This document shows, one piece after another, positions 1 to 50,441 of a stretch of 64,000 bases of DNA (position 1 is the stretch's first letter; each line of letters opens with the position of its first letter). A model generated the notes under the pieces. It worked only from the letters and a program-made list of their open reading frames with translations. It was not told the origin of the DNA and ran no database searches. The DNA lies in NCBI GenBank assembly GCA_949152475.1, contig OX424568.1, positions 19,195,667-19,259,666 of the forward strand. Direction: 5' to 3'. Both the position numbers and the translations under genes were made by a program. The DNA comes from Terebella lapidaria. Its lineage: Eukaryota > Annelida > Polychaeta > Terebellida > Terebellidae.

Positions 1-471
1 GCGTTTGTGTTAACTCCATTCTTCATAGCCTTAAAATATGACCTAATTACAACTGTTTGTTAATATAAAAACATTGATAAAAAGAAGACAAGCAATTATT
101 AGGTCATATTTTAGGGCTGTGCAATCGCCACATGTCTAAGCCTCTCTATTTGTTTTGTTTACTTGTTGTCAATGTAATTTCATATCTGTGCGGGAATATT
201 TGCTGTTTGTTATTCGCTCATTTTTAGGCTATCGATATTTGTTTTTGGATTTTTGTAATTTTGATATATTTTAGGTTTTTTAGTAGTGGCATCATCAAAA
301 TTTTGTGCCGTTAGCATGGTTAGAGGTAATATATTATGTTGATACATACGCAAACTAGATGTTTCAAATGGTTCAGTTTCCAATGCTATATGTTGTCAGG
401 GGATGCCATAAATGTGTAAATAATGAGTAAATGTTTTGAATGTAAACAAATGTGTAGATTTTCGTCAAGTG
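1..471. other. Unique-looking left flank
   Basis: I see no gene and no match to the repeat modules that follow. The stretch is AT-rich and broken by stops. It carries one inverted repeat near its left end, listed separately. It ends where the first stem-loop leader and GTTT tract of the repeat block begin. Confidence 0.6.
32..114. repeat. Inverted repeat with 16-bp perfect arms
   Basis: The arm TAAAATATGACCTAAT (32-47) is the exact reverse complement of 99-114, with about 50 bp between them. It could be the end of a small foldback element or a chance hairpin. No target-site duplication was recognised. Confidence 0.6.
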
Positions 472-524
472 TTGGCCTATGGCCGATTTTTTGTATGTTT
501 GTTTGTTTGTTTGTTTGTTTGTTT
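464..524 (+). repeat. Stem-loop leader (type H5) plus GTTT microsatellite heading array A
   Basis: TTGGCC (472-477) pairs with GGCCGA (481-486) around the loop TAT, with one G-T wobble. Just upstream is a TTTCGTCAAGT block resembling those before the leaders near 28600 and 50390. A run of GTTT then joins directly to the first S copy. This leader differs from those of arrays B and C although the S units are the same, so leader and body appear exchangeable at the microsatellite. Confidence 0.6.
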
Positions 525-8770: not shown

Positions 8771-11219
8771 TACTTGGCCAAATGAAATTTGGTCAAGTAT
8801 GTTGGTCGGTTGCGTTTGTTTGTTTGTTTGTTTGTCAGTAAGCACTCTAGCGTCCACAATTCCAGTTCTATCCTTCCCAAACTTGGTCGGAATATTCTGT
8901 AGGACAATGGCTCGGACGAGTTCGAAGATGGGCATTCAAGGTCAAATATTGAGGTCAAGGTCATGCAAAATGTCGAAAACACATAAATGGCCATAACACC
9001 GGTTCTAATTGTCCTAGAAACTTCAAACTAAGTTCATATTTTAGACAAACTCGAGTTCTATCTTCCGTGACCTTGACCTTGACATTTGACCTTGACCTTG
9101 AGAAGTTCGCCTGAGGTCGAAGTCAAGGTCAAATACAAAGGTCGGCGCAGTATATCGAGTAGTATATCGTTGGAAAGGTCTTGAGCCCCTGATTCCAGTG
9201 ATATCTTATTTTTGGCGCTGAGACGTAAACTGACGTCACAATGACGTCATAAACGTCGAAAAGCCGAAATTTCAAAGGGTCATAACATCGTTAATAGTGT
9301 ATGGAATCCCTTGGAATTTGATATGCATTTTGACAGCATTGACCTCTACGAATTAAAGTACAAAGGTCAAAGGTCAAGGTCAAGGTTACCGATATCCCAG
9401 AAAAACATGTTTTCGGTTATAACATCTGCTTGAATCGCAGCAGACTCCTGAAATTTGATCCATATGATTCAGAAGAGATATGGCAATCAGACGTGTATGA
9501 CAAGTTCATGATTGGTTTTGAACTTGGTCGGCAAAATGAGGTCACATGAGCAAAACTTGAAGGTCAAATTTTCAAACTTACTGATACTTATCAAATAGTA
9601 CATCAAATGGAAGGTATCAGTCCCCTGATACATACTGTTCCATGCTTTTTCAGATGTGACGTCTACTGACGTCACAGTGACGTCATAAACGTCAATTTTT
9701 CAAAATTTCAAAAGGCCATAGTGTCCGTAATTCTTTTTTGATTCTGATTAAATTATTCAAGTATAATCTGTATGTCCATACACAGGCAGTGCACAACTTT
9801 CGTGACCCAAAGTCACAGGTCAAAGCCAAGGTCAAGGAATAGGTCAAAATCACATAAATGGCCATAACTTCAGTTCTATATGTCAGGAAGATTTTAAATT
9901 AAATGCATACTGTAAAAAAAATCAAAGTCTATCTTCAGTGACCTTGACCGTGACCTTTGACCATGACCTTGACCCAACCGCTCAAGGTCAAACTTTCATG
10001 AGAAAACAAAATTATCTCTGACTCTCAATTTGATGCTTGAATACGATGTATTGTTGGTCCCTTATGCTCCACGTCAATTTTGAGTCTGATCGGATAAGCC
10101 ATTGGGACGAAATTGACGTTCTTATGGCAACAAAGCTGGTCCCATTATAAGCAAAATCGCATATCCCGAGCTATCTATACTGATAACTGCCTGAATGATG
10201 ATTGTGAAAATCTGTCAGTAGACTGTCTTATAAGTGAGGTCAAGTTCTTCCAGTTAAAAAAATTTCAAGGTCAAATGTCAAAGCCCGAGGTCAATATTGA
10301 CCTTCAATTGAAAATCGTGTAGGTCACTATATCTCAACTGTTAACGAAAACAGGAACGCAAAAGTAAAACCAGAATGTTGTCTTCACCTAGCCTAGAAAC
10401 ATTTGTATTTACACCTAAGGCCTACGACCCATAGCCTTTCAAGTGCCTTGGTAAAATTTTACCTTAAAAATGACCTTGACCTTCACTTTTTAAAAATTTT
10501 GAAAGGTCTTCAAGAGTACTTTCCGAATCTGTTGCCATTTTAAAAATATGATGATATTTCACGACACTATGACGTCAAACGTGATTTTAATTTGAATTAG
10601 AACCTGTCGGTTCCCATAGTCATGTTGGAGTGTGCAGGTTGCATGCACCGCAAGCGCCCACCACGACTCCGTCATTGTGAATATCTACGAGGAAACAATG
10701 TGTTCAATAACAGTATTATTCCTAGTTTATGATGCACTTTTCATATTTGCAATACATTGAAAACTCACCGAGATATCTTCATGGAAAGAGCAGTGGGGGT
10801 AAATCTGGTCCCCAGACCGTTTATACACCAATAAGTTGTGGAAACGATTACCCCCTGTGCACGAGTCCCATTCTAACTATAATGATTCGGTCGTGTAGTA
10901 ACACAATATACCTCGAATAATCTAAATATTTACTTCAAAACAACGTTGCTGTTGTTTTCTAACTCAGTGATGTCCAGATGACACAAAGCCTAAAAGCCAT
11001 GATGTATTTACTACAATTTCAGGCACGAAACACTCCTTATTATTCATACTATTGGCGATGACGAACCGGGTTCGAACCGGGTTTTTATAAATATCTTGTA
11101 TATATGCATAGGATATTGTTACTTGACGAAATCAAACATTTAGTCAAGTATGTTGATCGGTTCTGTTTGTTACTTGGCCAAATGAAATTTGGTCAAGTAT
11201 GTTGGTCGGTTGCGTTTGT
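8771..11219 (+). repeat. Long module L1 (2449 bp)
   Basis: L1 begins inside the GTTT tract of the last S copy with hairpin H1 (arms TACTTGGCCAAAT and ATTTGGTCAAGTA, loop GAA, 8771-8799), then GTTT and CAGTAAGCACTCTAGCG. Its first 650 bp and last 500 bp are homologous to S. The middle holds further GGTCA/TGACC clusters and a second pair of TGACGTCA sites (9667-9685) that S lacks. The module ends with a tandem CGAACCGGGTT pair, a TTGTATATATGCA stretch, an H2-like hairpin at 11120 and an extra H1 at 11171. I see no gene. Confidence 0.88.
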
Positions 11220-13619
11220 TACTTGGCCAAATGAAATTTGGTCAAGTATGTTGGTCGGTTGCGTTTGTTTGTTTGTTTGTTTGTCAGTAAGCACTCTAGC
11301 GTCCACAATTCCAGTTCTATCCTTCCCAAACTTGGTCGGAATATTCTGTAGGACAATGGCTCGGACGAGTTCGAAGATGGGCATTCAAGGTCAAATATTG
11401 AGGTCAAGGTCATGCAAAATGTCGAAAACACATAAATGGCCATAACACCGGTTCTAATTGTCCTAGAAACTTCAAACTAAGTTCATATTTTAGACAAACT
11501 CGAGTTCTATCTTCCGTGACCTTGACCTTGACATTTGACCTTGACCTTGAGAAGTTCGCCTGAGGTCGAAGTCAAGGTCAAATACAAAGGTCGGCGCAGT
11601 ATATCGAGTAGTATATCGTTGGAAAGGTCTTGAGCCCCTGATTCCAGTGATATCTTATTTTTGGCGCTGAGACGTAAACTGACGTCACAATGACGTCATA
11701 AACGTCGAAAAGCCGAAATTTCAAAGGGTCATAACATCGTTAATAGTGTATGGAATCCCTTGGAATTTGATATGCATTTTGACAGCATTGACCTCTACGA
11801 ATTAAAGTACAAAGGTCAAAGGTCAAGGTCAAGGTTACCGATATCCCAGAAAAACATGTTTTCGGTTATAACATCTGCTTGAATCGCAGCAGACTCCTGA
11901 AATTTGATCCATATGATTCAGAAGAGATATGGCAATCAGACGTGTATGACAAGTTCATGATTGGTTTTGAACTTGGTCGGCAAAATGAGGTCACATGAGC
12001 AAAACTTGAAGGTCAAATTTTCAAACTTACTGATACTTATCAAATAGTACATCAAATGGAAGGTATCAGTCCCCTGATACATACTGTTCCATGCTTTTTC
12101 AGATGTGACGTCTACTGACGTCACAGTGACGTCATAAACGTCAATTTTTCAAAATTTCAAAAGGCCATAGTGTCCGTAATTCTTTTTTGATTCTGATTAA
12201 ATTATTCAAGTATAATCTGTATGTCCATACACAGGCAGTGCACAACTTTCGTGACCCAAAGTCACAGGTCAAAGCCAAGGTCAAGGAATAGGTCAAAATC
12301 ACATAAATGGCCATAACTTCAGTTCTATATGTCAGGAAGATTTTAAATTAAATGCATACTGTAAAAAAAATCAAAGTCTATCTTCAGTGACCTTGACCGT
12401 GACCTTTGACCATGACCTTGACCCAACCGCTCAAGGTCAAACTTTCATGAGAAAACAAAATTATCTCTGACTCTCAATTTGATGCTTGAATACGATGTAT
12501 TGTTGGTCCCTTATGCTCCACGTCAATTTTGAGTCTGATCGGATAAGCCATTGGGACGAAATTGACGTTCTTATGGCAACAAAGCTGGTCCCATTATAAG
12601 CAAAATCGCATATCCCGAGCTATCTATACTGATAACTGCCTGAATGATGATTGTGAAAATCTGTCAGTAGACTGTCTTATAAGTGAGGTCAAGTTCTTCC
12701 AGTTAAAAAAATTTCAAGGTCAAATGTCAAAGCCCGAGGTCAATATTGACCTTCAATTGAAAATCGTGTAGGTCACTATATCTCAACTGTTAACGAAAAC
12801 AGGAACGCAAAAGTAAAACCAGAATGTTGTCTTCACCTAGCCTAGAAACATTTGTATTTACACCTAAGGCCTACGACCCATAGCCTTTCAAGTGCCTTGG
12901 TAAAATTTTACCTTAAAAATGACCTTGACCTTCACTTTTTAAAAATTTTGAAAGGTCTTCAAGAGTACTTTCCGAATCTGTTGCCATTTCAAAAATATGA
13001 TGATATTTCACGACACTATGACGTCAAACGTGATTTTAATTTGAATTAGAACCTGTCGGTTCCCATAGTCATGTTGGAGTGTGCAGGTTGCATGCACCGC
13101 AAGCGCCCACCACGACTCCGTCATTGTGAATATCTACGAGGAAACAATGTGTTCAATAACAGTATTATTCCTAGTTTATGATGCACTTTTCATATTTGCA
13201 ATACATTGAAAACTCACCGAGATATCTTCATGGAAAGAGCAGTGGGGGTAAATCTGGTCCCCAGACCGTTTATACACCAATAAGTTGTGGAAACGATTAC
13301 CCCCTGTGCACGAGTCCCATTCTAACTATAATGATTCGGTCGTGTAGTAACACAATATACCTCGAATAATCTAAATATTTACTTCAAAACAACGTTGCTG
13401 TTGTTTTCTAACTCAGTGATGTCCAGATGACACAAAGCCTAAAAGCCATGATGTATTTACTACAATTTCAGGCACGAAACACTCCTTATTATTCATACTA
13501 TTGGCGATGACGAACCGGGTTCGAACCGGGTTTTTATAAATATCTTGTATATATGCATAGGATGTTGTTACTTGACGAAATCAAACATTTAGTCAAGTAT
13601 GTTGATCGGTTCTGTTTGT
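11220..13619 (+). repeat. Long module L2 (2400 bp)
   Basis: L2 is a near-identical tandem copy of L1 at 2449-bp offset through most of its length. Its right part instead shares variants with the following LX modules: CCATTTCAAAA near 12985 where L1 has CCATTTTAAAA, and GGATGTTG near 13561 where L1 has GGATATTG. L2 therefore looks like a mosaic, left part from the L1 duplication and right part from the LX amplification. Confidence 0.87.
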
Positions 13620-16600
13620 TACTTGGCCAAATTAAATTTGGTCAAGTATGTTGGTCGGTTGCGTTTGTTTGTTTGTTTGTTTGTTTGTTTGTTTGTCAGT
13701 AAGCACTCTAGCGTCCACAATTCCAGTTCTATCCTTCCCAAACTTGGTCGGAATATTCTGTAGGACAATGGCTCGGACGAGTTCGAAGATGGGCATTCAA
13801 GGTCAGATTTTTATGAAAGCATATATCAATGTAAGTATCAATCTATTACCACCAATACATCCAGATTTTGATTATGTTAATAACAAACGTAAAGTACAAC
13901 ATTTTGCAATAGAAACAAAGCCTGACCAAATATTTTATCCAAAGACACACTGGCGTCATCAGGGGCAGACAATGTGTTAAATGTAGTTGTTCCTACTGTA
14001 CACCTGATAGAATTAGTATACAACTGCCCGACAACCTATGAAAAAAAATATATAAATCCAAAACGAACCCCATGCAATAGATATATGACAAGTACATAAG
14101 TACCTAATCATAAGCCAAAAGGCTCCTGAGTTGATGGTATCCTCGGAGACAAATTTTTAACGTCCGCCAGCAGTGACACCAACTCAGTGGTATCAATGTA
14201 AGTATCAATCTTTTACCACCAATATACAGCCAAATTTTGATGATGGTAATAACAAACGTAAAGTACAACATTTCGCAATAGAAACAAAGCCCGACCAAAT
14301 AGTTTATCCAAAGACACACTGGCGTCATCAGGGGCAGACAGTGTGTTAAATGTAGTTGTTTCTACTGTACACCTGATGGAATTAGTACACAACTGCCCAA
14401 CAACCTATGAAAAACATTAATATATAAATCCAATACAAACCCCAAGCCAAAAGGCTACTGAATTGATGGTATCCTCGGGGACAGATTTAACATCCGCCAG
14501 CAGTGACACCTACTCAGTGGTATGAATGTGAGTATCGATCTATTCCTACCAATACATCCAGATTTTGATGATGTTAATAACAAACGTAAAGTACAACATT
14601 TTGGAATAGGAACAAAGCCCGACCAAATATGTGACCTTGACCTTTGACCTTGATTTAGTATTTAAAGGTCAAATGTTCGAAAATATGCGAATGCGTTTTC
14701 ACAATTTTTCTGGCTAAAATTCATAACGAAATGTTTGCAGAATGTACCAGAGTATCCAGTAAGTAGACATGGTTAACAGATCAGAAAATTTGGGTCAACG
14801 TTTTAAGTCAAGGTCAAATACAAAGGTCGGCGCAGTATATCGAGTAGTATATCGTTGGAAAGGTCTTGAGCCCCTGATTCCAGTGATATCTTATTTTTGG
14901 CGCTGAGACGTAAACTGACGTCACAATGACGTCATAAACGTCGAAAAGCCGAAATTTCAAAGGGTCATAACATCGTTAATAGTGTATGGAATCCCTTGGA
15001 ATTTGATATGCATTTTGACAGCATTGACCTCTACGAATTAAAGTACAAAGGTCAAAGGTCAAGGTCAAGGTTACCGATATCCCAGAAAAACATGTTTTCG
15101 GTTATAACATCTGCTTGAATCGCAGCAGACTCCTGAAATTTGATCCATATGATTCAGAAGAGATATGGCAATCAGACGTGTATGACAAGTTCATGATTGG
15201 TTTTGAACTTGGTCGGCAAAATGAGGTCACATGAGCAAAACTTGAAGGTCAAATTTTCAAACTTACTGATACTTATCAAATAGTACATCAAATGGAAGGT
15301 ATCAGTCCCCTGATACATACTGTTCCATGCTTTTTCAGATGTGACGTCTACTGACGTCACAGTGACGTCATAAACGTCAATTTTTCAAAATTTCAAAAGG
15401 CCATAGTGTCCGTAATTCTTTTTTGATTCTGATTAAATTATTCAAGTATAATCTGTATGTCCATACACAGGCAGTGCACAACTTTCGTGACCCAAAGTCA
15501 CAGGTCAAAGCCAAGGTCAAGGAATAGGTCAAAATCACATAAATGGCCATAACTTCAGTTCTATATGTCAGGAAGATTTTAAATTAAATGCATACTGTAA
15601 AAAAAATCAAAGTCTATCTTCAGTGACCTTGACCGTGACCTTTGACCATGACCTTGACCCAACCGCTCAAGGTCAAACTTTCATGAGAAAACAAAATTAT
15701 CTCTGACTCTCAATTTGATGCTTGAATACGATGTATTGTTGGTCCCTTATGCTCCACGTCAATTTTGAGTCTGATCGGATAAGCCATTGGGACGAAATTG
15801 ACGTTCTTATGGCAACAAAGCTGGTCCCATTATAAGCAAAATCGCATATCCCGAGCTATCTATACTGATAACTGCCTGAATGATGATTGTGAAAATCTGT
15901 CAGTAGACTGTCTTATAAGTGAGGTCAAGTTCTTCCAGTTAAAAAAATTTCAAGGTCAAATGTCAAAGCCCGAGGTCAATATTGACCTTCAATTGAAAAT
16001 CGTGTAGGTCACTATATCTCAACTGTTAACGAAAACAGGAACGCAAAAGTAAAACCAGAATGTTGTCTTCACCTAGCCTAGAAACATTTGTATTTACACC
16101 TAAGGCCTACGACCCATAGCCTTTCAAGTGCCTTGGTAAAATTTTACCTTAAAAATGACCTTGACCTTCACTTTTTAAAAATTTTGAAAGGTCTTCAAGA
16201 GTACTTTCCGAATCTGTTGCCATTTCAAAAATATGATGATATTTCACGACACTATGACGTCAAACGTGATTTTAATTTGAATTAGAACCTGTCGGTTCCC
16301 ATAGTCATGTTGGAGTGTGCAGGTTGCATGCACCGCAAGCGCCCACCACGACTCCGTCATTGTGAATATCTACGAGGAAACAATGTGTTCAATAACAGTA
16401 TTATTCCTAGTTTATGATGCACTTTTCATATTTGCAATACATTGAAAACTCACCGAGATATCTTCATGGAAAGAGCAGTGGGGGTAAATCTGGTCCCCAG
16501 ACCGTTTATACACCAATAAGTTGTGGAAACGATTACCCCCTGTGCACGAGTCCCATTCTAACTATAATGATTCGGTCGTGTAGTAACACAATATACCTCG

Positions 16601-16855
16601 AATAATCTAAATATTTACTTCAAAACAACGTTGCTGTTGTTTTCTAACTCAGTGATGTCCAGATGACACAAAGCCTAAAAGCCATGATGTATTTACTACA
16701 ATTTCAGGCACGAAACACTCCTTATTATTCATACTATTGGCGATGACGAACCGGGTTCGAACCGGGTTTTTATAAATATCTTGTATATATGCATAGGATG
16801 TTGTTACTTGACGAAATCAAACATTTAGTCAAGTATGTTGATCGGTTCTGTTTGT
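13620..16855 (+). repeat. Chimeric module LX1 (3236 bp)
   Basis: It starts with H1 (loop TAA variant) and an L head. After CAAGGTCA at 13805 it switches to the X core (13806-14804). At about 14804-14815 it switches back to L sequence inside a shared GTCAAGGTCA. Relative to L2, 175 bp of L (11394-11568) are replaced by about 999 bp of X. With three extra GTTT steps this accounts exactly for the 836-bp length difference. The right-hand switch looks like a recombination junction because X1, X2 and X3 continue differently at that point. Confidence 0.87.
13806..14804 (+). repeat. X core with three roughly 330-370-bp sub-repeats
   Basis: Sub-repeats are marked by AATGT(A/G)AGTATC(A/G)ATC at 13831, 14198 and 14528. 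Each carries the ACACACTG / CAGTGTGT inverted pair, a CCAAAAGGCT motif and a CAGTGACACC motif. A TGACCTTGACCTTTGACC run near 14632 follows the last sub-repeat. The same core recurs at 17042-18040, from 20282, from 26807 and from 31125 with different sub-repeat numbers. No coding potential is recognised. Confidence 0.8.
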
Positions 16856-19800
16856 TACTTGGCCAAATTAAATTTGGTCAAGTATGTTGGTCGGTTGCGT
16901 TTGTTTGTTTGTTTGTTTGTTTGTTTGTTTGTCAGTAAGCACTCTAGCGTCCACAATTCCAGTTCTATCCTTCCCAAACTTGGTCGGAATATTCTGTAGG
17001 ACAATGGCTCGGACGAGTTCGAAGATGGGCATTCAAGGTCAGATTTTTATGAAAGCATATATCAATGTAAGTATCAATCTATTACCACCAATACATCCAG
17101 ATTTTGATTATGTTAATAACAAACGTAAAGTACAACATTTTGCAATAGAAACAAAGCCTGACCAAATATTTTATCCAAAGACACACTGGCGTCATCAGGG
17201 GCAGACAATGTGTTAAATGTAGTTGTTCCTACTGTACACCTGATAGAATTAGTATACAACTGCCCGACAACCTATGAAAAAAAATATATAAATCCAAAAC
17301 GAACCCCATGCAATAGATATATGACAAGTACATAAGTACCTAATCATAAGCCAAAAGGCTCCTGAGTTGATGGTATCCTCGGAGACAAATTTTTAACGTC
17401 CGCCAGCAGTGACACCAACTCAGTGGTATCAATGTAAGTATCAATCTTTTACCACCAATATACAGCCAAATTTTGATGATGGTAATAACAAACGTAAAGT
17501 ACAACATTTCGCAATAGAAACAAAGCCCGACCAAATAGTTTATCCAAAGACACACTGGCGTCATCAGGGGCAGACAGTGTGTTAAATGTAGTTGTTTCTA
17601 CTGTACACCTGATGGAATTAGTACACAACTGCCCAACAACCTATGAAAAACATTAATATATAAATCCAATACAAACCCCAAGCCAAAAGGCTACTGAATT
17701 GATGGTATCCTCGGGGACAGATTTAACATCCGCCAGCAGTGACACCTACTCAGTGGTATGAATGTGAGTATCGATCTATTCCTACCAATACATCCAGATT
17801 TTGATGATGTTAATAACAAACGTAAAGTACAACATTTTGGAATAGGAACAAAGCCCGACCAAATATGTGACCTTGACCTTTGACCTTGATTTAGTATTTA
17901 AAGGTCAAATGTTCGAAAATATGCGAATGCGTTTTCACAATTTTTCTGGCTAAAATTCATAACGAAATGTTTGCAGAATGTACCAGAGTATCCAGTAAGT
18001 AGACATGGTTAACAGATCAGAAAATTTGGGTCAACGTTTTAAGTCAAGGTCAAATACAAAGGTCGGCGCAGTATATCGAGTAGTATATCGTTGGAAAGGT
18101 CTTGAGCCCCTGATTCCAGTGATATCTTATTTTTGGCGCTGAGACGTAAACTGACGTCACAATGACGTCATAAACGTCGAAAAGCCGAAATTTCAAAGGG
18201 TCATAACATCGTTAATAGTGTATGGAATCCCTTGGAATTTGATATGCATTTTGACAGCATTGACCTCTACGAATTAAAGTACAAAGGTCAAAGGTCAAGG
18301 TCAAGGTTACCGATATCCCAGAAAAACATGTTTTCGGTTATAACATCTGCTTGAATCGCAGCAGACTCCTGAAATTTGATCCATATGATTCAGAAGAGAT
18401 ATGGCAATCAGACGTGTATGACAAGTTCATGATTGGTTTTGAACTTGGTCGGCAAAATGAGGTCACATGAGCAAAACTTGAAGGTCAAATTTTCAAACTT
18501 ACTGATACTTATCAAATAGTACATCAAATGGAAGGTATCAGTCCCCTGATACATACTGTTCCATGCTTTTTCAGATGTGACGTCTACTGACGTCACAGTG
18601 ACGTCATAAACGTCAATTTTTCAAAATTTCAAAAGGCCATAGTGTCCGTAATTCTTTTTTGATTCTGATTAAATTATTCAAGTATAATCTGTATGTCCAT
18701 ACACAGGCAGTGCACAACTTTCGTGACCCAAAGTCACAGGTCAAAGCCAAGGTCAAGGAATAGGTCAAAATCACATAAATGGCCATAACTTCAGTTCTAT
18801 ATGTCAGGAAGATTTTAAATTAAATGCATACTGTAAAAAAAATCAAAGTCTATCTTCAGTGACCTTGACCGTGACCTTTGACCATGACCTTGACCCAACC
18901 GCTCAAGGTCAAACTTTCATGAGAAAACAAAATTATCTCTGACTCTCAATTTGATGCTTGAATACGATGTATTGTTGGTCCCTTATGCTCCACGTCAATT
19001 TTGAGTCTGATCGGATAAGCCATTGGGACGAAATTGACGTTCTTATGGCAACAAAGCTGGTCCCATTATAAGCAAAATCGCATATCCCGAGCTATCTATA
19101 CTGATAACTGCCTGAATGATGATTGTGAAAATCTGTCAGTAGACTGTCTTATAAGTGAGGTCAAGTTCTTCCAGTTAAAAAAATTTCAAGGTCAAATGTC
19201 AAAGCCCGAGGTCAATATTGACCTTCAATTGAAAATCGTGTAGGTCACTATATCTCAACTGTTAACGAAAACAGGAACGCAAAAGTAAAACCAGAATGTT
19301 GTCTTCACCTAGCCTAGAAACATTTGTATTTACACCTAAGGCCTACGACCCATAGCCTTTCAAGTGCCTTGGTAAAATTTTACCTTAAAAATGACCTTGA
19401 CCTTCACTTTTTAAAAATTTTGAAAGGTCTTCAAGAGTACTTTCCGAATCTGTTGCCATTTCAAAAATATGATGATATTTCACGACACTATGACGTCAAA
19501 CGTGATTTTAATTTGAATTAGAACCTGTCGGTTCCCATAGTCATGTTGGAGTGTGCAGGTTGCATGCACCGCAAGCGCCCACCACGACTCCGTCATTGTG
19601 AATATCTACGAGGAAACAATGTGTTCAATAACAGTATTATTCCTAGTTTATGATGCACTTTTCATATTTGCAATACATTGAAAACTCACCGAGATATCTT
19701 CATGGAAAGAGCAGTGGGGGTAAATCTGGTCCCCAGACCGTTTATACACCAATAAGTTGTGGAAACGATTACCCCCTGTGCACGAGTCCCATTCTAACTA

Positions 19801-20091
19801 TAATGATTCGGTCGTGTAGTAACACAATATACCTCGAATAATCTAAATATTTACTTCAAAACAACGTTGCTGTTGTTTTCTAACTCAGTGATGTCCAGAT
19901 GACACAAAGCCTAAAAGCCATGATGTATTTACTACAATTTCAGGCACGAAACACTCCTTATTATTCATACTATTGGCGATGACGAACCGGGTTCGAACCG
20001 GGTTTTTATAAATATCTTGTATATATGCATAGGATGTTGTTACTTGACGAAATCAAACATTTAGTCAAGTATGTTGATCGGTTCTGTTTGT
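16856..20091 (+). repeat. Chimeric module LX2 (3236 bp), tandem duplicate of LX1
   Basis: It has the same length and the same L-to-X and X-to-L switch points as LX1, shifted by exactly 3236 bp, with X core at 17042-18040. The GTTT tract after the head has the same eight steps. The fusion therefore formed once and was duplicated in tandem afterwards. Confidence 0.88.
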
Positions 20092-35200: not shown

Positions 35201-38200
35201 CATTATTCCAGTTCTAATCATCGTAGAGACTTCAAATCAAGTTCATATTGTAGATATACTCGAATTCTGTCTTCTGTGACCATGACCTTGACATTTGACC
35301 TTGACCTTGAGAAGTATGCCATGAGGTGAATATCAAGGTCAAGTACGAAGGTCAGCGCACTATATCGAGTAGTACATTGTTGGAAAGGTCTTGAGTCCCT
35401 GATTCCAGTGATATCTCATTTTTGGCGCTGCGACATAAACTGACGTCATAATGACGTCATAAACGTCAAAAATCCGAAATTTCAAAGGGCCATAACACCG
35501 TCAATAGTGAATGGAATCCTTTGAAATTTGATATGCACTTTGAAAGCATTGACTTCTACGAATTTAAGTGCAAAGGTCAAAGGTCAAGGTCAAGGTCATC
35601 GAAATCCCAGAAAAACACGTTTCCGGTAATAACATCTGTTTGAATCATTGTGGGCTCATGAAATTTGAACCATGTCATTTAGAAGGGGTATGGCAATCAG
35701 ATAAATATGTCAATTCCATGATTTACCTCGAACTTTGTCTATAATCTGACAAAACTTAATCAGAATCCCATGAGTTTTTGGGATTTTACAGATATTTTTT
35801 TATGTTTTCATGGCTCCAATTTTCACACATTTACTGAACATTAATTTTAAAGAATTTCCTTGCAGTCAGTTGCAGTGTTATTTCTAGTTTATGGTCCACT
35901 TTTCACATTTGGAATAACTTGAAAACTCGCCGAGATATCAAAGTAGAAAGAGCAGTGGGGTGAATTTGATTCTCAATCCGTTCAGATGCTAATAAGCTGT
36001 AGAAACGATTACCCCCTGTGGACATGTCCCCTTCTAAATATACACACTCGGTTGCGAAGTAGTACAGTATATCATATATGTATCCAAGTGCACATCTCAA
36101 ACAACATTTCTTTTGTTTTTTGACTCAGAGGTGTCCAATTGGTATGATAAAGTCTAAAACTCATGTCTAAATACAGTCTGGGTCAAGCGACAGGCCACTT
36201 TATATCACAACTTTTGGGCATGACGAACAGGGGTTTGTGAGCACCAGGTTTGTGAGCATTGTGAGCACTGTTACAGGTTTATAGTACATGTAGGGCATTG
36301 CCTAAGGCCCAATAGCTTGTATATATGCACCGGATATTATTACTTGACGAAATCAAAGATTTTGTCAAGTATGTTGATCGGTTCCGTTTGTTTGTATGTT
36401 TGTTTGTTTGTTTGTTTGTTTGTTTGTGTGCGCTCTACAGGCCACAGTTCTCATTGGAAATTCATGAAATCTGGTAGAAAGTTTCTGGGCTGAAAAAGAA
36501 AGGTCGCTAGTTCTTTGTTAAGCTCAAGGTCAAATAACAAGGTCAAGGTCACGCAAAACGTCGAAAACACATAAGTGCTCATTATTCCAGTTCTAATCAT
36601 CGTAGAGACTTCAAATCAAGTTCATATTGTAGATATACTCGAATTCTGTCTTCTGTGACCATGACCTTGACATTTGACCTTGACCTTGAGAAGTATGCCA
36701 TGAGGTGAATATCAAGGTCAAGTACGAAGGTCAGCGCACTATATCGAGTAGTACATTGTTGGAAAGGTCTTGAGTCCCTGATTCCAGTGATATCTCATTT
36801 TTGGCGCTGCGACATAAACTGACGTCATAATGACGTCATAAACGTCAAAAATCCGAAATTTCAAAGGGCCATAACACCGTCAATAGTGAATGGAATCCTT
36901 TGAAATTTGATATGCACTTTGAAAGCATTGACTTCTACGAATTTAAGTGCAAAGGTCAAAGGTCAAGGTCAAGGTCATCGAAATCCCAGAAAAACACGTT
37001 TCCGGTAATAACATCTGTTTGAATCATTGTGGGCTCATGAAATTTGAACCATGTCATTTAGAAGGGGTATGGCAATCAGATAAATATGTCAATTCCATGA
37101 TTTACCTCGAACTTTGTCTATAATCTGACAAAACTTAATCAGAATCCCATGAGTTTTTGGGATTTTACAGATATTTTTTTATGTTTTCATGGCTCCAATT
37201 TTCACACATTTACTGAACATTAATTTTAAAGAATTTCCTTGCAGTCAGTTGCAGTGTTATTTCTAGTTTATGGTCCACTTTTCACATTTGGAATAACTTG
37301 AAAACTCGCCGAGATATCAAAGTAGAAAGAGCAGTGGGGTGAATTTGATTCTCAATCCGTTCAGATGCTAATAAGCTGTAGAAACGATTACCCCCTGTGG
37401 ACATGTCCCCTTCTAAATATACACACTCGGTTGCGAAGTAGTACAGTATATCATATATGTATCCAAGTGCACATCTCAAACAACATTTCTTTTGTTTTTT
37501 GACTCAGAGGTGTCCAATTGGTATGATAAAGTCTAAAACTCATGTCTAAATACAGTCTGGGTCAAGCGACAGGCCACTTTATATCACAACTTTTGGGCAT
37601 GACGAACAGGGGTTTGTGAGCACCAGGTTTGTGAGCATTGTGAGCACTGTTACAGGTTTATAGTACATGTAGGGCATTGCCTAAGGCCCAATAGCTTGTA
37701 TATATGCACCGGATATTATTACTTGACGAAATCAAAGATTTTGTCAAGTATGTTGATCGGTTCCGTTTGTTTGTATGTTTGTTTGTTTGTTTGTTTGTTT
37801 GTTTGTGTGCGCTCTACAGGCCACAGTTCTCATTGGAAATTCATGAAATCTGGTAGAAAGTTTCTGGGCTGAAAAAGAAAGGTCGCTAGTTCTTTGTTAA
37901 GCTCAAGGTCAAATAACAAGGTCAAGGTCACGCAAAACGTCGAAAACACATAAGTGCTCATTATTCCAGTTCTAATCATCGTAGAGACTTCAAATCAAGT
38001 TCATATTGTAGATATACTCGAATTCTGTCTTCTGTGACCATGACCTTGACATTTGACCTTGACCTTGAGAAGTATGCCATGAGGTGAATATCAAGGTCAA
38101 GTACGAAGGTCAGCGCACTATATCGAGTAGTACATTGTTGGAAAGGTCTTGAGTCCCTGATTCCAGTGATATCTCATTTTTGGCGCTGCGACATAAACTG

Positions 38201-41200
38201 ACGTCATAATGACGTCATAAACGTCAAAAATCCGAAATTTCAAAGGGCCATAACACCGTCAATAGTGAATGGAATCCTTTGAAATTTGATATGCACTTTG
38301 AAAGCATTGACTTCTACGAATTTAAGTGCAAAGGTCAAAGGTCAAGGTCAAGGTCATCGAAATCCCAGAAAAACACGTTTCCGGTAATAACATCTGTTTG
38401 AATCATTGTGGGCTCATGAAATTTGAACCATGTCATTTAGAAGGGGTATGGCAATCAGATAAATATGTCAATTCCATGATTTACCTCGAACTTTGTCTAT
38501 AATCTGACAAAACTTAATCAGAATCCCATGAGTTTTTGGGATTTTACAGATATTTTTTTATGTTTTCATGGCTCCAATTTTCACACATTTACTGAACATT
38601 AATTTTAAAGAATTTCCTTGCAGTCAGTTGCAGTGTTATTTCTAGTTTATGGTCCACTTTTCACATTTGGAATAACTTGAAAACTCGCCGAGATATCAAA
38701 GTAGAAAGAGCAGTGGGGTGAATTTGATTCTCAATCCGTTCAGATGCTAATAAGCTGTAGAAACGATTACCCCCTGTGGACATGTCCCCTTCTAAATATA
38801 CACACTCGGTTGCGAAGTAGTACAGTATATCATATATGTATCCAAGTGCACATCTCAAACAACATTTCTTTTGTTTTTTGACTCAGAGGTGTCCAATTGG
38901 TATGATAAAGTCTAAAACTCATGTCTAAATACAGTCTGGGTCAAGCGACAGGCCACTTTATATCACAACTTTTGGGCATGACGAACAGGGGTTTGTGAGC
39001 ACCAGGTTTGTGAGCATTGTGAGCACTGTTACAGGTTTATAGTACATGTAGGGCATTGCCTAAGGCCCAATAGCTTGTATATATGCACCGGATATTATTA
39101 CTTGACGAAATCAAAGATTTTGTCAAGTATGTTGATCGGTTCCGTTTGTTTGTATGTTTGTTTGTTTGTTTGTTTGTTTGTTTGTGTGCGCTCTACAGGC
39201 CACAGTTCTCATTGGAAATTCATGAAATCTGGTAGAAAGTTTCTGGGCTGAAAAAGAAAGGTCGCTAGTTCTTTGTTAAGCTCAAGGTCAAATAACAAGG
39301 TCAAGGTCACGCAAAACGTCGAAAACACATAAGTGCTCATTATTCCAGTTCTAATCATCGTAGAGACTTCAAATCAAGTTCATATTGTAGATATACTCGA
39401 ATTCTGTCTTCTGTGACCATGACCTTGACATTTGACCTTGACCTTGAGAAGTATGCCATGAGGTGAATATCAAGGTCAAGTACGAAGGTCAGCGCACTAT
39501 ATCGAGTAGTACATTGTTGGAAAGGTCTTGAGTCCCTGATTCCAGTGATATCTCATTTTTGGCGCTGCGACATAAACTGACGTCATAATGACGTCATAAA
39601 CGTCAAAAATCCGAAATTTCAAAGGGCCATAACACCGTCAATAGTGAATGGAATCCTTTGAAATTTGATATGCACTTTGAAAGCATTGACTTCTACGAAT
39701 TTAAGTGCAAAGGTCAAAGGTCAAGGTCAAGGTCATCGAAATCCCAGAAAAACACGTTTCCGGTAATAACATCTGTTTGAATCATTGTGGGCTCATGAAA
39801 TTTGAACCATGTCATTTAGAAGGGGTATGGCAATCAGATAAATATGTCAATTCCATGATTTACCTCGAACTTTGTCTATAATCTGACAAAACTTAATCAG
39901 AATCCCATGAGTTTTTGGGATTTTACAGATATTTTTTTATGTTTTCATGGCTCCAATTTTCACACATTTACTGAACATTAATTTTAAAGAATTTCCTTGC
40001 AGTCAGTTGCAGTGTTATTTCTAGTTTATGGTCCACTTTTCACATTTGGAATAACTTGAAAACTCGCCGAGATATCAAAGTAGAAAGAGCAGTGGGGTGA
40101 ATTTGATTCTCAATCCGTTCAGATGCTAATAAGCTGTAGAAACGATTACCCCCTGTGGACATGTCCCCTTCTAAATATACACACTCGGTTGCGAAGTAGT
40201 ACAGTATATCATATATGTATCCAAGTGCACATCTCAAACAACATTTCTTTTGTTTTTTGACTCAGAGGTGTCCAATTGGTATGATAAAGTCTAAAACTCA
40301 TGTCTAAATACAGTCTGGGTCAAGCGACAGGCCACTTTATATCACAACTTTTGGGCATGACGAACAGGGGTTTGTGAGCACCAGGTTTGTGAGCATTGTG
40401 AGCACTGTTACAGGTTTATAGTACATGTAGGGCATTGCCTAAGGCCCAATAGCTTGTATATATGCACCGGATATTATTACTTGACGAAATCAAAGATTTT
40501 GTCAAGTATGTTGATCGGTTCCGTTTGTTTGTATGTTTGTTTGTTTGTTTGTTTGTTTGTTTGTGTGCGCTCTACAGGCCACAGTTCTCATTGGAAATTC
40601 ATGAAATCTGGTAGAAAGTTTCTGGGCTGAAAAAGAAAGGTCGCTAGTTCTTTGTTAAGCTCAAGGTCAAATAACAAGGTCAAGGTCACGCAAAACGTCG
40701 AAAACACATAAGTGCTCATTATTCCAGTTCTAATCATCGTAGAGACTTCAAATCAAGTTCATATTGTAGATATACTCGAATTCTGTCTTCTGTGACCATG
40801 ACCTTGACATTTGACCTTGACCTTGAGAAGTATGCCATGAGGTGAATATCAAGGTCAAGTACGAAGGTCAGCGCACTATATCGAGTAGTACATTGTTGGA
40901 AAGGTCTTGAGTCCCTGATTCCAGTGATATCTCATTTTTGGCGCTGCGACATAAACTGACGTCATAATGACGTCATAAACGTCAAAAATCCGAAATTTCA
41001 AAGGGCCATAACACCGTCAATAGTGAATGGAATCCTTTGAAATTTGATATGCACTTTGAAAGCATTGACTTCTACGAATTTAAGTGCAAAGGTCAAAGGT
41101 CAAGGTCAAGGTCATCGAAATCCCAGAAAAACACGTTTCCGGTAATAACATCTGTTTGAATCATTGTGGGCTCATGAAATTTGAACCATGTCATTTAGAA

Positions 41201-44200
41201 GGGGTATGGCAATCAGATAAATATGTCAATTCCATGATTTACCTCGAACTTTGTCTATAATCTGACAAAACTTAATCAGAATCCCATGAGTTTTTGGGAT
41301 TTTACAGATATTTTTTTATGTTTTCATGGCTCCAATTTTCACACATTTACTGAACATTAATTTTAAAGAATTTCCTTGCAGTCAGTTGCAGTGTTATTTC
41401 TAGTTTATGGTCCACTTTTCACATTTGGAATAACTTGAAAACTCGCCGAGATATCAAAGTAGAAAGAGCAGTGGGGTGAATTTGATTCTCAATCCGTTCA
41501 GATGCTAATAAGCTGTAGAAACGATTACCCCCTGTGGACATGTCCCCTTCTAAATATACACACTCGGTTGCGAAGTAGTACAGTATATCATATATGTATC
41601 CAAGTGCACATCTCAAACAACATTTCTTTTGTTTTTTGACTCAGAGGTGTCCAATTGGTATGATAAAGTCTAAAACTCATGTCTAAATACAGTCTGGGTC
41701 AAGCGACAGGCCACTTTATATCACAACTTTTGGGCATGACGAACAGGGGTTTGTGAGCACCAGGTTTGTGAGCATTGTGAGCACTGTTACAGGTTTATAG
41801 TACATGTAGGGCATTGCCTAAGGCCCAATAGCTTGTATATATGCACCGGATATTATTACTTGACGAAATCAAAGATTTTGTCAAGTATGTTGATCGGTTC
41901 CGTTTGTTTGTATGTTTGTTTGTTTGTTTGTTTGTTTGTTTGTGTGCGCTCTACAGGCCACAGTTCTCATTGGAAATTCATGAAATCTGGTAGAAAGTTT
42001 CTGGGCTGAAAAAGAAAGGTCGCTAGTTCTTTGTTAAGCTCAAGGTCAAATAACAAGGTCAAGGTCACGCAAAACGTCGAAAACACATAAGTGCTCATTA
42101 TTCCAGTTCTAATCATCGTAGAGACTTCAAATCAAGTTCATATTGTAGATATACTCGAATTCTGTCTTCTGTGACCATGACCTTGACATTTGACCTTGAC
42201 CTTGAGAAGTATGCCATGAGGTGAATATCAAGGTCAAGTACGAAGGTCAGCGCACTATATCGAGTAGTACATTGTTGGAAAGGTCTTGAGTCCCTGATTC
42301 CAGTGATATCTCATTTTTGGCGCTGCGACATAAACTGACGTCATAATGACGTCATAAACGTCAAAAATCCGAAATTTCAAAGGGCCATAACACCGTCAAT
42401 AGTGAATGGAATCCTTTGAAATTTGATATGCACTTTGAAAGCATTGACTTCTACGAATTTAAGTGCAAAGGTCAAAGGTCAAGGTCAAGGTCATCGAAAT
42501 CCCAGAAAAACACGTTTCCGGTAATAACATCTGTTTGAATCATTGTGGGCTCATGAAATTTGAACCATGTCATTTAGAAGGGGTATGGCAATCAGATAAA
42601 TATGTCAATTCCATGATTTACCTCGAACTTTGTCTATAATCTGACAAAACTTAATCAGAATCCCATGAGTTTTTGGGATTTTACAGATATTTTTTTATGT
42701 TTTCATGGCTCCAATTTTCACACATTTACTGAACATTAATTTTAAAGAATTTCCTTGCAGTCAGTTGCAGTGTTATTTCTAGTTTATGGTCCACTTTTCA
42801 CATTTGGAATAACTTGAAAACTCGCCGAGATATCAAAGTAGAAAGAGCAGTGGGGTGAATTTGATTCTCAATCCGTTCAGATGCTAATAAGCTGTAGAAA
42901 CGATTACCCCCTGTGGACATGTCCCCTTCTAAATATACACACTCGGTTGCGAAGTAGTACAGTATATCATATATGTATCCAAGTGCACATCTCAAACAAC
43001 ATTTCTTTTGTTTTTTGACTCAGAGGTGTCCAATTGGTATGATAAAGTCTAAAACTCATGTCTAAATACAGTCTGGGTCAAGCGACAGGCCACTTTATAT
43101 CACAACTTTTGGGCATGACGAACAGGGGTTTGTGAGCACCAGGTTTGTGAGCATTGTGAGCACTGTTACAGGTTTATAGTACATGTAGGGCATTGCCTAA
43201 GGCCCAATAGCTTGTATATATGCACCGGATATTATTACTTGACGAAATCAAAGATTTTGTCAAGTATGTTGATCGGTTCCGTTTGTTTGTATGTTTGTTT
43301 GTTTGTTTGTTTGTTTGTTTGTGTGCGCTCTACAGGCCACAGTTCTCATTGGAAATTCATGAAATCTGGTAGAAAGTTTCTGGGCTGAAAAAGAAAGGTC
43401 GCTAGTTCTTTGTTAAGCTCAAGGTCAAATAACAAGGTCAAGGTCACGCAAAACGTCGAAAACACATAAGTGCTCATTATTCCAGTTCTAATCATCGTAG
43501 AGACTTCAAATCAAGTTCATATTGTAGATATACTCGAATTCTGTCTTCTGTGACCATGACCTTGACATTTGACCTTGACCTTGAGAAGTATGCCATGAGG
43601 TGAATATCAAGGTCAAGTACGAAGGTCAGCGCACTATATCGAGTAGTACATTGTTGGAAAGGTCTTGAGTCCCTGATTCCAGTGATATCTCATTTTTGGC
43701 GCTGCGACATAAACTGACGTCATAATGACGTCATAAACGTCAAAAATCCGAAATTTCAAAGGGCCATAACACCGTCAATAGTGAATGGAATCCTTTGAAA
43801 TTTGATATGCACTTTGAAAGCATTGACTTCTACGAATTTAAGTGCAAAGGTCAAAGGTCAAGGTCAAGGTCATCGAAATCCCAGAAAAACACGTTTCCGG
43901 TAATAACATCTGTTTGAATCATTGTGGGCTCATGAAATTTGAACCATGTCATTTAGAAGGGGTATGGCAATCAGATAAATATGTCAATTCCATGATTTAC
44001 CTCGAACTTTGTCTATAATCTGACAAAACTTAATCAGAATCCCATGAGTTTTTGGGATTTTACAGATATTTTTTTATGTTTTCATGGCTCCAATTTTCAC
44101 ACATTTACTGAACATTAATTTTAAAGAATTTCCTTGCAGTCAGTTGCAGTGTTATTTCTAGTTTATGGTCCACTTTTCACATTTGGAATAACTTGAAAAC

Positions 44201-47200
44201 TCGCCGAGATATCAAAGTAGAAAGAGCAGTGGGGTGAATTTGATTCTCAATCCGTTCAGATGCTAATAAGCTGTAGAAACGATTACCCCCTGTGGACATG
44301 TCCCCTTCTAAATATACACACTCGGTTGCGAAGTAGTACAGTATATCATATATGTATCCAAGTGCACATCTCAAACAACATTTCTTTTGTTTTTTGACTC
44401 AGAGGTGTCCAATTGGTATGATAAAGTCTAAAACTCATGTCTAAATACAGTCTGGGTCAAGCGACAGGCCACTTTATATCACAACTTTTGGGCATGACGA
44501 ACAGGGGTTTGTGAGCACCAGGTTTGTGAGCATTGTGAGCACTGTTACAGGTTTATAGTACATGTAGGGCATTGCCTAAGGCCCAATAGCTTGTATATAT
44601 GCACCGGATATTATTACTTGACGAAATCAAAGATTTTGTCAAGTATGTTGATCGGTTCCGTTTGTTTGTATGTTTGTTTGTTTGTTTGTTTGTTTGTTTG
44701 TGTGCGCTCTACAGGCCACAGTTCTCATTGGAAATTCATGAAATCTGGTAGAAAGTTTCTGGGCTGAAAAAGAAAGGTCGCTAGTTCTTTGTTAAGCTCA
44801 AGGTCAAATAACAAGGTCAAGGTCACGCAAAACGTCGAAAACACATAAGTGCTCATTATTCCAGTTCTAATCATCGTAGAGACTTCAAATCAAGTTCATA
44901 TTGTAGATATACTCGAATTCTGTCTTCTGTGACCATGACCTTGACATTTGACCTTGACCTTGAGAAGTATGCCATGAGGTGAATATCAAGGTCAAGTACG
45001 AAGGTCAGCGCACTATATCGAGTAGTACATTGTTGGAAAGGTCTTGAGTCCCTGATTCCAGTGATATCTCATTTTTGGCGCTGCGACATAAACTGACGTC
45101 ATAATGACGTCATAAACGTCAAAAATCCGAAATTTCAAAGGGCCATAACACCGTCAATAGTGAATGGAATCCTTTGAAATTTGATATGCACTTTGAAAGC
45201 ATTGACTTCTACGAATTTAAGTGCAAAGGTCAAAGGTCAAGGTCAAGGTCATCGAAATCCCAGAAAAACACGTTTCCGGTAATAACATCTGTTTGAATCA
45301 TTGTGGGCTCATGAAATTTGAACCATGTCATTTAGAAGGGGTATGGCAATCAGATAAATATGTCAATTCCATGATTTACCTCGAACTTTGTCTATAATCT
45401 GACAAAACTTAATCAGAATCCCATGAGTTTTTGGGATTTTACAGATATTTTTTTATGTTTTCATGGCTCCAATTTTCACACATTTACTGAACATTAATTT
45501 TAAAGAATTTCCTTGCAGTCAGTTGCAGTGTTATTTCTAGTTTATGGTCCACTTTTCACATTTGGAATAACTTGAAAACTCGCCGAGATATCAAAGTAGA
45601 AAGAGCAGTGGGGTGAATTTGATTCTCAATCCGTTCAGATGCTAATAAGCTGTAGAAACGATTACCCCCTGTGGACATGTCCCCTTCTAAATATACACAC
45701 TCGGTTGCGAAGTAGTACAGTATATCATATATGTATCCAAGTGCACATCTCAAACAACATTTCTTTTGTTTTTTGACTCAGAGGTGTCCAATTGGTATGA
45801 TAAAGTCTAAAACTCATGTCTAAATACAGTCTGGGTCAAGCGACAGGCCACTTTATATCACAACTTTTGGGCATGACGAACAGGGGTTTGTGAGCACCAG
45901 GTTTGTGAGCATTGTGAGCACTGTTACAGGTTTATAGTACATGTAGGGCATTGCCTAAGGCCCAATAGCTTGTATATATGCACCGGATATTATTACTTGA
46001 CGAAATCAAAGATTTTGTCAAGTATGTTGATCGGTTCCGTTTGTTTGTATGTTTGTTTGTTTGTTTGTTTGTTTGTTTGTGTGCGCTCTACAGGCCACAG
46101 TTCTCATTGGAAATTCATGAAATCTGGTAGAAAGTTTCTGGGCTGAAAAAGAAAGGTCGCTAGTTCTTTGTTAAGCTCAAGGTCAAATAACAAGGTCAAG
46201 GTCACGCAAAACGTCGAAAACACATAAGTGCTCATTATTCCAGTTCTAATCATCGTAGAGACTTCAAATCAAGTTCATATTGTAGATATACTCGAATTCT
46301 GTCTTCTGTGACCATGACCTTGACATTTGACCTTGACCTTGAGAAGTATGCCATGAGGTGAATATCAAGGTCAAGTACGAAGGTCAGCGCACTATATCGA
46401 GTAGTACATTGTTGGAAAGGTCTTGAGTCCCTGATTCCAGTGATATCTCATTTTTGGCGCTGCGACATAAACTGACGTCATAATGACGTCATAAACGTCA
46501 AAAATCCGAAATTTCAAAGGGCCATAACACCGTCAATAGTGAATGGAATCCTTTGAAATTTGATATGCACTTTGAAAGCATTGACTTCTACGAATTTAAG
46601 TGCAAAGGTCAAAGGTCAAGGTCAAGGTCATCGAAATCCCAGAAAAACACGTTTCCGGTAATAACATCTGTTTGAATCATTGTGGGCTCATGAAATTTGA
46701 ACCATGTCATTTAGAAGGGGTATGGCAATCAGATAAATATGTCAATTCCATGATTTACCTCGAACTTTGTCTATAATCTGACAAAACTTAATCAGAATCC
46801 CATGAGTTTTTGGGATTTTACAGATATTTTTTTATGTTTTCATGGCTCCAATTTTCACACATTTACTGAACATTAATTTTAAAGAATTTCCTTGCAGTCA
46901 GTTGCAGTGTTATTTCTAGTTTATGGTCCACTTTTCACATTTGGAATAACTTGAAAACTCGCCGAGATATCAAAGTAGAAAGAGCAGTGGGGTGAATTTG
47001 ATTCTCAATCCGTTCAGATGCTAATAAGCTGTAGAAACGATTACCCCCTGTGGACATGTCCCCTTCTAAATATACACACTCGGTTGCGAAGTAGTACAGT
47101 ATATCATATATGTATCCAAGTGCACATCTCAAACAACATTTCTTTTGTTTTTTGACTCAGAGGTGTCCAATTGGTATGATAAAGTCTAAAACTCATGTCT

Positions 47201-47435
47201 AAATACAGTCTGGGTCAAGCGACAGGCCACTTTATATCACAACTTTTGGGCATGACGAACAGGGGTTTGTGAGCACCAGGTTTGTGAGCATTGTGAGCAC
47301 TGTTACAGGTTTATAGTACATGTAGGGCATTGCCTAAGGCCCAATAGCTTGTATATATGCACCGGATATTATTACTTGACGAAATCAAAGATTTTGTCAA
47401 GTATGTTGATCGGTTCCGTTTGTTTGTATGTTTGT
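32274..47435 (+). repeat. Tandem array B: eleven copies of the 1379-bp S unit
   Basis: Anchors fall at 32289, 33668, 35047, 36426, 37805, 39184, 40563, 41942, 43321, 44700 and 46079, every interval exactly 1379 bp. By eye the copies are identical, including a constant seven-step GTTT tract, which is unusual because microsatellites normally change length quickly. The first copy is entered from hairpin H3. The last is cut in its GTTT tract by hairpin H6 at 47436. No copy carries the 6-bp or 8-bp deletions seen in array A. The array is either very recently amplified or homogenised, or partly an assembly product. Confidence 0.93.
32811..32845 (+). promoter_or_regulatory. Nuclear-receptor-type half-site cluster in the S unit (representative)
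   Basis: The first array B copy shows four AGGTCA half-sites in succession, two separated by one A (AGGTCA-A-AGGTCA, the DR1 arrangement) and two in TCAAGGTCA context. DR1 is the known arrangement for RXR, HNF4 and COUP-TF type receptors, and TCAAGGTCA for ERR and NR5A type receptors. Binding here is inference only. The pattern repeats in every S copy except array A copy 2, which has one fewer half-site. Confidence 0.4.
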
Positions 47436-47690
47436 TACTTGGCGAAATCTTCGATTTTGCCAAGTATGTTGGTCACTAGAGTTTGTCTGTCCGTCTGTCT
47501 GTCTGTTTGTTTGTTTGTTCGCATCGTACAGGCCACAGTTCTCGTGTGATCTAAACCAAACTTGCCACACATAACAGCCATAGGCTAACTTAGATCAGCC
47601 CAACTTTTCAAGGTCAAAGGTCAAAGGTCAAGGTCACAGGAATAGTTAGAATCTTTTCTGCCATTTAAGCCAATGTTAAATTCAAAACTG
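47436..47690 (+). repeat. Stem-loop leader H6, mixed microsatellite and GGTCA-bearing lead segment
   Basis: TACTTGGCGAAATC (47436-47449) pairs with GATTTTGCCAAGTA (47453-47466) around TTC, 14 pairs with one G-T. A GTCTG/GTTTG tract and GTACAGGCCACAGTTCTC follow, the latter shared with the S head. A short run of AGGTCA sites near 47610-47635 precedes the satellite. The leader interrupts the last S copy of array B inside its GTTT tract. Confidence 0.72.
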
Positions 47691-50340: not shown

Positions 50341-50379
50341 TATGTGTTAGCATAGATATGGTATGGATATTATACAAGT

Positions 50380-50441
50380 ATTTCGCCAAGTTTTGGCCTA
50401 CTGGCCAATGTTTTCTCGTTTGTTTGTTTGTTTGTTTGTTT
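50380..50441 (+). repeat. Stem-loop leader H4 plus GTTT tract heading array C
   Basis: TTGGCC (50393-50398) and GGCCAA (50403-50408) are perfect arms around TACT. They are preceded by TTTCGCCAAGT and followed by TTTTCTCG and GTTT repeats. The layout matches H3 and H5 but the stem sequence differs. The S unit begins directly after the microsatellite. Confidence 0.72.

Follow-up and report, generated by a model that had tools for sequence, protein, structure and literature searches.

Stem-loop leaders that recur in a 64,000-nucleotide stretch of the Terebella lapidaria genome (contig OX424568.1, positions 19,195,667 to 19,259,666; hereafter the window) very likely form the 5' ends of non-autonomous Helentrons (HINEs), which autonomous Helentrons with like termini in that genome probably mobilise. 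The left arm of a leader is complementary both to the neighbouring arm, with which it forms a hairpin, and to a subterminal inverted repeat (subTIR) at the 3' end of the element. That the arms change together, in step with the 3' copy, suggests that pairing is needed for jumping.

A preliminary description of three leaders, H1, H2 and H6, had claimed that their arms covary while the pairing is kept. All three lie where that description placed them:

1819..1849, + strand: H2 leader hairpin (5' subTIR as left arm, loop AAA, right arm), with 18 identical copies in the window
8771..8799, + strand: H1 leader hairpin, the 5' boundary of the H1 block
47436..47466, + strand: H6 leader hairpin, the 5' boundary of the H6 element

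Stem pairs are numbered here from the A-T of ACTTG, whereas the earlier count began at the outer T-A as pair 1; its pairs 7 and 9 are therefore our pairs 6 and 8. The differences it reported are present in the sequence. Pair 6 is G-T in H1, A-T in H2 and G-C in H6, pair 8 is C-G in H1 and G-T in both H2 and H6, and the loops are GAA and TAA (H1 variants), AAA (H2) and TTC (H6). Folding energies of the three as single-stranded DNA were -9.1, -9.5 and -10.8 kcal/mol, with folding z scores of -7.65, -6.87 and -7.06 and none of 200 shuffles as good in any case. Three leaders with three variable pairs, some of them G.T, are thin evidence, and paired change was therefore tested across the genome (761.6 Mb).

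A pattern of H2/H6 length (five bases between the arms, which excludes H1) gave 1276 matches and none in the control. A loose pattern specifying linker, outer arm bases and TT gave 5481 leaders when the linker was GG (control 0) and 7103 when either linker was allowed (CAACATASTTGN{12,22}CAASTAA; control 1). These totals are genome-wide; leader types were taken from the first 100 places listed per search (contig 1, or contigs 1-4 for one search), and type frequencies hold for the matches listed. Twenty-three types were aligned: 13 seen at least twice among the 100 GG-linker matches listed, 4 from contigs 1-4 and 6 from the window or the H2/H6-length search. The alignment omits 10 types seen once in the GG-linker listing, two single hits from the listing of contigs 1-4, and two window types (a mutated leader at 26622 and an ACTTGACGG type). 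Over 12 stem pairs, 98.6% of cells were paired versus 87.7 +/- 1.2% with the 3' letters re-dealt, 25 cells were changed on both sides versus 6.6 in shuffled sets, and the covariation score was 0.313 versus 0.104, each value being reached in none of 500 trials. Sliding the partner by one column lowered pairing to 43-49%. Among the 100 GG-linker matches listed, pairing failed in one of the 156 cells of the 13 repeated types and in 6 of the 120 cells of the 10 singletons; when whole right arms were re-dealt, this total of 7 broken pairs was reached in 0 of 20000 trials. Pair 2 could be followed through all 7103 TT-flanked leaders, where on the pattern strand it was C..G in 5814, G..C in 1272, G..G in 16 and C..C in 1 (17 mismatched). 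The arms change in pairs genome-wide, as the preliminary description had noted for three examples.

Elements readable to their end carry the reverse complement of the left arm followed by a palindrome, which gives the layout TT-[left arm-loop-right arm]-ATGTTG(G/A)TC-(TTTG)n-body-[3' copy of arm]-palindrome-end. Five such 3' ends lie in the window:

459..493, + strand: 3' end of an upstream element (subTIR and GGCC palindrome, end GATTTTTTG), adjoining the first (TTTG)7 of the H2 array
21710..21754, + strand: 3' end of the H1 element with leader at 20093 (subTIR ATTTGGCCAAGT, palindromes, CTCG)
28601..28645, + strand: 3' end of the H1 element with the mutated leader at 26622, an element that holds 369-bp central repeats
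32229..32273, + strand: 3' end of the H1 element with leader at 30960
50380..50418, + strand: 3' end of the H6 element (subTIR ATTTCGCCAAGT, palindrome, CTCG)

Twelve tabulated elements with both ends terminate in CTCG, with 19-33 nt between 3' subTIR and CTCG. Other 3' types end in GATTTTTTG, as at window 459-493 and in an autonomous element of ACTTGACGAAAT type considered below, which share one type of 3' end, or in GCTTCA or GGTTCA (loci L001, L002, L042 and L007). The 3' palindrome stood out from shuffled sequence at window 50391-50417 (z -4.72, 0/200 shuffles as good) and 32240-32275 (z -2.75, 3/200); the remaining ones were recognised only as exact inverted repeats in scans, or by eye.

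Concerted change was measured on ten distinct triples of left arm, right arm and 3' subTIR, taken from elements of which both termini were read. Left arm and 3' subTIR mismatched at 3 of 120 positions (shuffled mean 21.5; 1 in 50000 shuffles as low), left and right arm at 7 of 120, and right arm and 3' subTIR at 8 of 120; shuffled averages were about 21-22 in each comparison, and the observed values were reached in 1-2 of 50000. The elements thus possess both the subTIRs of HINEs and Helentrons, in ten distinct left-arm/3' pairs, and the inverted repeat complementary to the 5' subTIR that forms the 5' hairpin. In H1, H6 and L043 a single C-to-T in the right arm, at a position differing among the three, has produced a G.T pair while left arm and 3' end match exactly, and in L052 an A.A mismatch interrupts the hairpin while left arm and 3' subTIR are exact. 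Thus the hairpin is not the only thing conserved.

These same observations favour the strongest alternative, that a single family-specific protein, Rep or another, binds the three arm copies as double-stranded sites and shifts in its preference, the hairpin being a by-product of two sites that face each other. The left arm fits the 3' subTIR, where no local hairpin is possible, at least as well as it fits its neighbour (3 versus 7 of 120), and the mismatch of L052 spares the left arm and 3' copy. We nonetheless regard recognition of duplex DNA as unlikely, if deserving of serious weight. The 13 repeated leader types depart from Watson-Crick pairing as G.T in 8 cells and as another mismatch in 1, which weighs against a duplex site, since G.T is tolerated by pairing and not necessarily by such a site. 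Moreover, the arms lie only a few bases apart in the leaders seen, a spacing that the search patterns required. A second alternative dispenses with selection. Short-loop inverted repeats are known substrates of template-switch correction, by which replication could copy one arm onto the other, and several leader types are indeed perfect palindromes. However, the 3' subTIR, which changes in step, is out of range for such correction at distances of more than 1 kb up to about 22 kb, and uncorrected G.T pairs persist in repeated families (H2, H1 and the CCGG type), so that palindrome correction appears quite improbable.

Consistent with the leaders being Helentron termini, the genome holds autonomous Helentrons with termini of this kind. 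A Helitron_like_N profile search gave 150 scored matches among 234 candidates, with open frames of up to 2866 amino acids. Two open frames, read in halves, hold the Helentron set of DUF6570, OTU, Rep (Helitron_like_N), PIF1 and Exo_endo_phos. One such frame lies in an element of about 22 kb on contig 1 (AGTTG type; C1:47135225-47157259) between the leader AGTTGACGAATT-AAA-AATTCGTCAACT and the 3' end AATTCGTCAACT-GCCGGGCCTATGGCCCCTCG, with no further leader or 3' end between these termini on that strand; Rep, helicase and endonuclease are thus joined to shared termini, as in an autonomous partner. Among 40 scored of 1712 candidates, a 1.5-kb stretch of this element recurs nearly whole (99%) at C14 and C4, other listed matches being short, and both copies have Rep frames in the same layout with identical leader and 3' end at the expected positions. 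AGTTG autonomous copies are flanked by TTTG tracts, with another leader on the right side at C1, and L052 is a short element that shares their arm and has a near-identical 3' end. In the second type (ACTTGACGAAAT; C1:46.37-46.40 Mb) a Rep frame lies between a leader at C1:46396051 and a 3' end at 46374338, and the part lying in L035 is open in one frame. At C15:19281509, 22 kb past the downstream edge of the window, another Helentron frame was considered as a partner and set aside as evidence for termini: no intact leader was recognised in the 20 kb read around it, where a 3' end of HINE kind alone was seen. AGTTG leaders also form a long array at C3:24913977-24979038, mostly about 908 bp apart and many with a broken pair 6, a leader family turned satellite.

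The window itself records where the leaders insert. H2-headed tandem units of 1371-1379 bp make up most of its sequence as far as about 53 kb, interrupted by the H1 block and one H6 element:

494..8769, + strand: H2 tandem array, units of 1371-1379 bp, with junctions of GGATATTA to TT-leader
1864..1905, + strand: (TTTG)n tract behind a leader, the kind of site occupied by relatives; an example of 16 intact tracts
8770..32273, + strand: H1 block, nested and tandem H1-type elements inside the (TTTG)7 tract of an H2 unit
11172..11247, + strand: stacked H1 leaders with a 49-bp step, two consecutive 5' termini
32274..47434, + strand: H2 tandem array, continuation
47435..50418, + strand: H6 element, a HINE with 257-bp central tandem repeats, inside the (TTTG)7 tract of an H2 unit
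50419..52990, + strand: H2 tandem array, continuation, the final unit diverging near 52990

Intact H2 tracts have seven TTTG after GTATG in 15 of 16 cases and five in the other. From left to right, the H1 block separates three TTTG from four, and the H6 element one from six; both sums are seven, and both insertions therefore sit in (TTTG)7 tracts. By these repeat counts nothing was lost or gained except an ambiguous TT. The flanks of a third insertion, L043, align gaplessly by eye with related sequence at window 62010. At all three the target is TT or T-rich without a longer target site duplication (by eye for L043), a 2-bp TT duplication being indistinguishable there from a TT owned by the element. 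The preliminary description proposed testing whether the hairpin marks insertion boundaries, and the hairpin does form the 5' edge of all three checkable insertions (H1 block and H6 by repeat counts, L043 by eye). All 37 window leaders found with a pattern free of the TT requirement have TT directly 5', 25 of them at unit junctions GGATRTTR-TT and 12 behind TTTG. Tandem units and leader stacks (window 11121-11247; also L042, L053, L057 and L059) are joined at the 5' edge of the leader, and TTTG stands directly 5' of 2448 of the 7103 TT-flanked leaders genome-wide. Collectively, paired change, position at the 5' boundary, the 3' subTIR and palindrome, and autonomous Helentrons with such termini support the earlier view that it is the stem which counts, in the manner of rolling-circle or Helentron element ends. 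That the hairpin instead acts in a transcript, through processing, stability or translation, is the least probable alternative: the G.T pairs have G on the left and T on the right of the leader strand, so that same-sense RNA would fold equally well, but insertions and tandem junctions have the hairpin at their DNA boundary, no Rfam family reached gathering score in a search of the window, and the frame of autonomous copies is antisense to the leader.

Several observations weigh against the leaders being Helentron termini kept by pairing. Transposition was inferred from sequence, and concerted change could also arise through one protein that recognises three motif copies, with no part for a hairpin. 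Two measures of covariation were less striking than the rest: 5 of 12 stem pairs (2, 6, 8, 9 and 11) were changed on both sides versus 3.3 in shuffled sets (60/500 as high), and further pair types numbered 10 versus 6.9 (6/500). Thirteen of the 16 pattern-strand G..G mismatches at pair 2 belong to one C.C lineage in arrays on C4 and C5, and repeated leaders carry an A.A mismatch (AGTTGACGAATTGAAAATTCGACAACT; arrays and L052) and a T.T mismatch (the ACTTGGCGAAATCTTCG.. type). Leader counts are copies, not independent events. On FastTree trees built with and without the right arm, only 4-5 double changes fell on single branches against a null mean of 1.3-1.7 (chance of as many coincident branches, P 0.026 and 0.011 for the two trees); all of them keep the pair, while of the single changes 9-11 leave a G.T and 4-5 destroy the pairing. 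Covariation is thus strong among copies and modest in independent events, and the tree-aware support for the preliminary claim is modest to the same degree. All genome patterns require both outer arm ends, and leaders that have lost them are invisible. Of 12 single loci no more than 5 showed both ends; in the other seven (L044, L045, L046, L047, L049, L051 and L054) the two were not found together in the roughly 3.5-4 kb read of each. Among the autonomous elements none was found with the exact arms of H1, H2 or H6, the frame is antisense to the leader in both types, and in the C1 copy of the ACTTGACGAAAT type about 4.7 kb is unread and Rep is the sole domain tested.

If the leaders are Helentron termini, Rep would recognise and nick the leader strand at TT/ACTTG, with the arm pair folded in single-stranded DNA, and strand displacement would proceed to the 3' subTIR and palindrome and stop there. 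Read-through followed by re-joining at a leader would generate tandem arrays of 3'-truncated units, which the 25 window junctions at leaders fit, and a start at an outer leader with a stop at an inner 3' end would generate leader stacks. Selection for a folded leader and a matching 3' end would keep the three arm copies changing together. Departures from Watson-Crick pairing on the leader strand tend to be G.T and not another mismatch, which agrees with a folded leader strand, be it DNA or RNA. A bolder version, which we think rather improbable, makes the left arm a pairing switch that would pair either with the neighbouring arm, the hairpin marking the 5' end for nicking, or with the distant 3' copy, joining the ends. 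Under this version the (TTTG)n tract behind a leader would be favoured by relatives, and leaders would therefore pile up, many sharing one 3' end and mobilising each other's bodies.

As HINE/Helentron termini the hairpins are ordinary in kind; their arms do change in pairs, and this change is linked to a third copy. The plan of subTIR, inverted repeat and microsatellite at one end and subTIR and palindrome at the other is already published for Cg_HINE of Crassostrea gigas (PMC7492417). Like the elements here, Cg_HINE has a 5' subTIR with a complementary inverted repeat a few bases away, a tetranucleotide microsatellite, central tandem repeats, a 3' subTIR followed by a palindrome, and a TT or T-rich target without target site duplication (PMC7492417). 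Its authors could not link autonomous Helentrons to HINEs, whereas two autonomous types here have such termini; the covariation and three-way match measured here, and the 2448 of 7103 leaders behind TTTG, also go beyond that account (PMC7492417). Helentrons and the DINE-1/HINE elements of insects and mites similarly show Rep/Helicase with a fused endonuclease, palindromic subTIRs or a subTIR with an inverted repeat, a 3' palindrome and a TT target (PMC4067079). Helentron tandem copies have been ascribed to a bypassed termination signal, and in mites 38-60 bp separate the 3' subTIR from the element end (PMC4067079). The autonomous elements here differ in their length of about 22 kb and in having the frame antisense to the leader; such an antisense frame was reported earlier as an exception (PMC4067079, PMC5148889).

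FoHeli of Fusarium oxysporum, of Helitron2 type, likewise has asymmetric inverted repeats with hairpins and, in some members, reversed frames (PMC5148889). Several short 5' termini with one 3' terminus were explained there by self-insertion, and the leader stacks of the window, L042, L053, L057 and L059 fit that model of an outer leader start and an inner 3' end (PMC5148889). FoHeli differs in having no endonuclease domain, and the leaders here differ in often standing behind TTTG (PMC5148889). With canonical Helitrons (Helitron1) the elements share a rolling-circle Rep/Helicase and a hairpin near the 3' end; unlike them they have a hairpin at the 5' end, termini TTA[CG]TTG and CTCG or GATTTTTTG, and target TT, not 5' TC, 3' CTRR and insertion between A and T (PMC4067079, PMC5148889). 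In the literature searched, no work joined 'Helentron' with 'compensatory', and PMC7492417 and PMC4067079 contain no word in 'covari-'. New here are the measured covariation, the three-way concert, the autonomous partners and the frequent insertion behind TTTG. The Helentron 5' hairpin, so far described structurally, keeps its pairing here under sequence change, and the 3' subTIR changes along with it. A single genome offers thousands of copies together with open autonomous frames, so that the role of the 5' hairpin of Helentrons and Helitron2 becomes directly testable. The window also provides base-exact nested insertions and illustrates how elements of this kind can expand into arrays resembling satellites.

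Minor features of the elements and of the window were also noted. In L001, L002 and L042 a leader lies directly behind another element's 3' end (..GATTGCTTCA then TT leader), so that elements stand head-to-tail at 3' ends too. The last H2 unit continues at window 52990-54999 into other sequence, of which 54504-54729 (93%) and 54723-54999 (88%) resemble stretches just before the 3' end at C15:19290435; this is perhaps a fuller 3' part missing from the array units. No tRNA was found in a search of the window. A coding role for the window repeats was considered and not adopted. Of 8 stop-to-stop frames with at least 110 amino acids, 7 lie in repeats and 1 is on the minus strand at 52949-53281. 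A second family of double-stem hairpins occurs at window 59078-59108 (TAGCTTGCCGGCCCTTTGGGCCGATAAGCTA; z -3.83) and 61864-61894 (TAGGTTACCGGACCTATGGTCCGATAACCTA; z -5.49), with similar sequence near window 57608 and in L039 near 200. A CGTC-rich microsatellite lies behind these hairpins, whose outer and inner stems differ by paired changes, and they are perhaps the 5' ends of another Helentron-like family. An inverted repeat at window 60563-61409 has arms of 52 nt separated by 743 nt, and several TAGGCGCATGCGCCTATA-like palindromes lie within and next to these arms. Over the whole window, TCAAGGTCA/TGACCTTGA occurs 272 times versus 1.1 expected and TGACGTCA 84 times versus 1.0, many of the copies lying inside repeated units; nuclear receptors and CREB/AP-1 factors bind sites of this kind.

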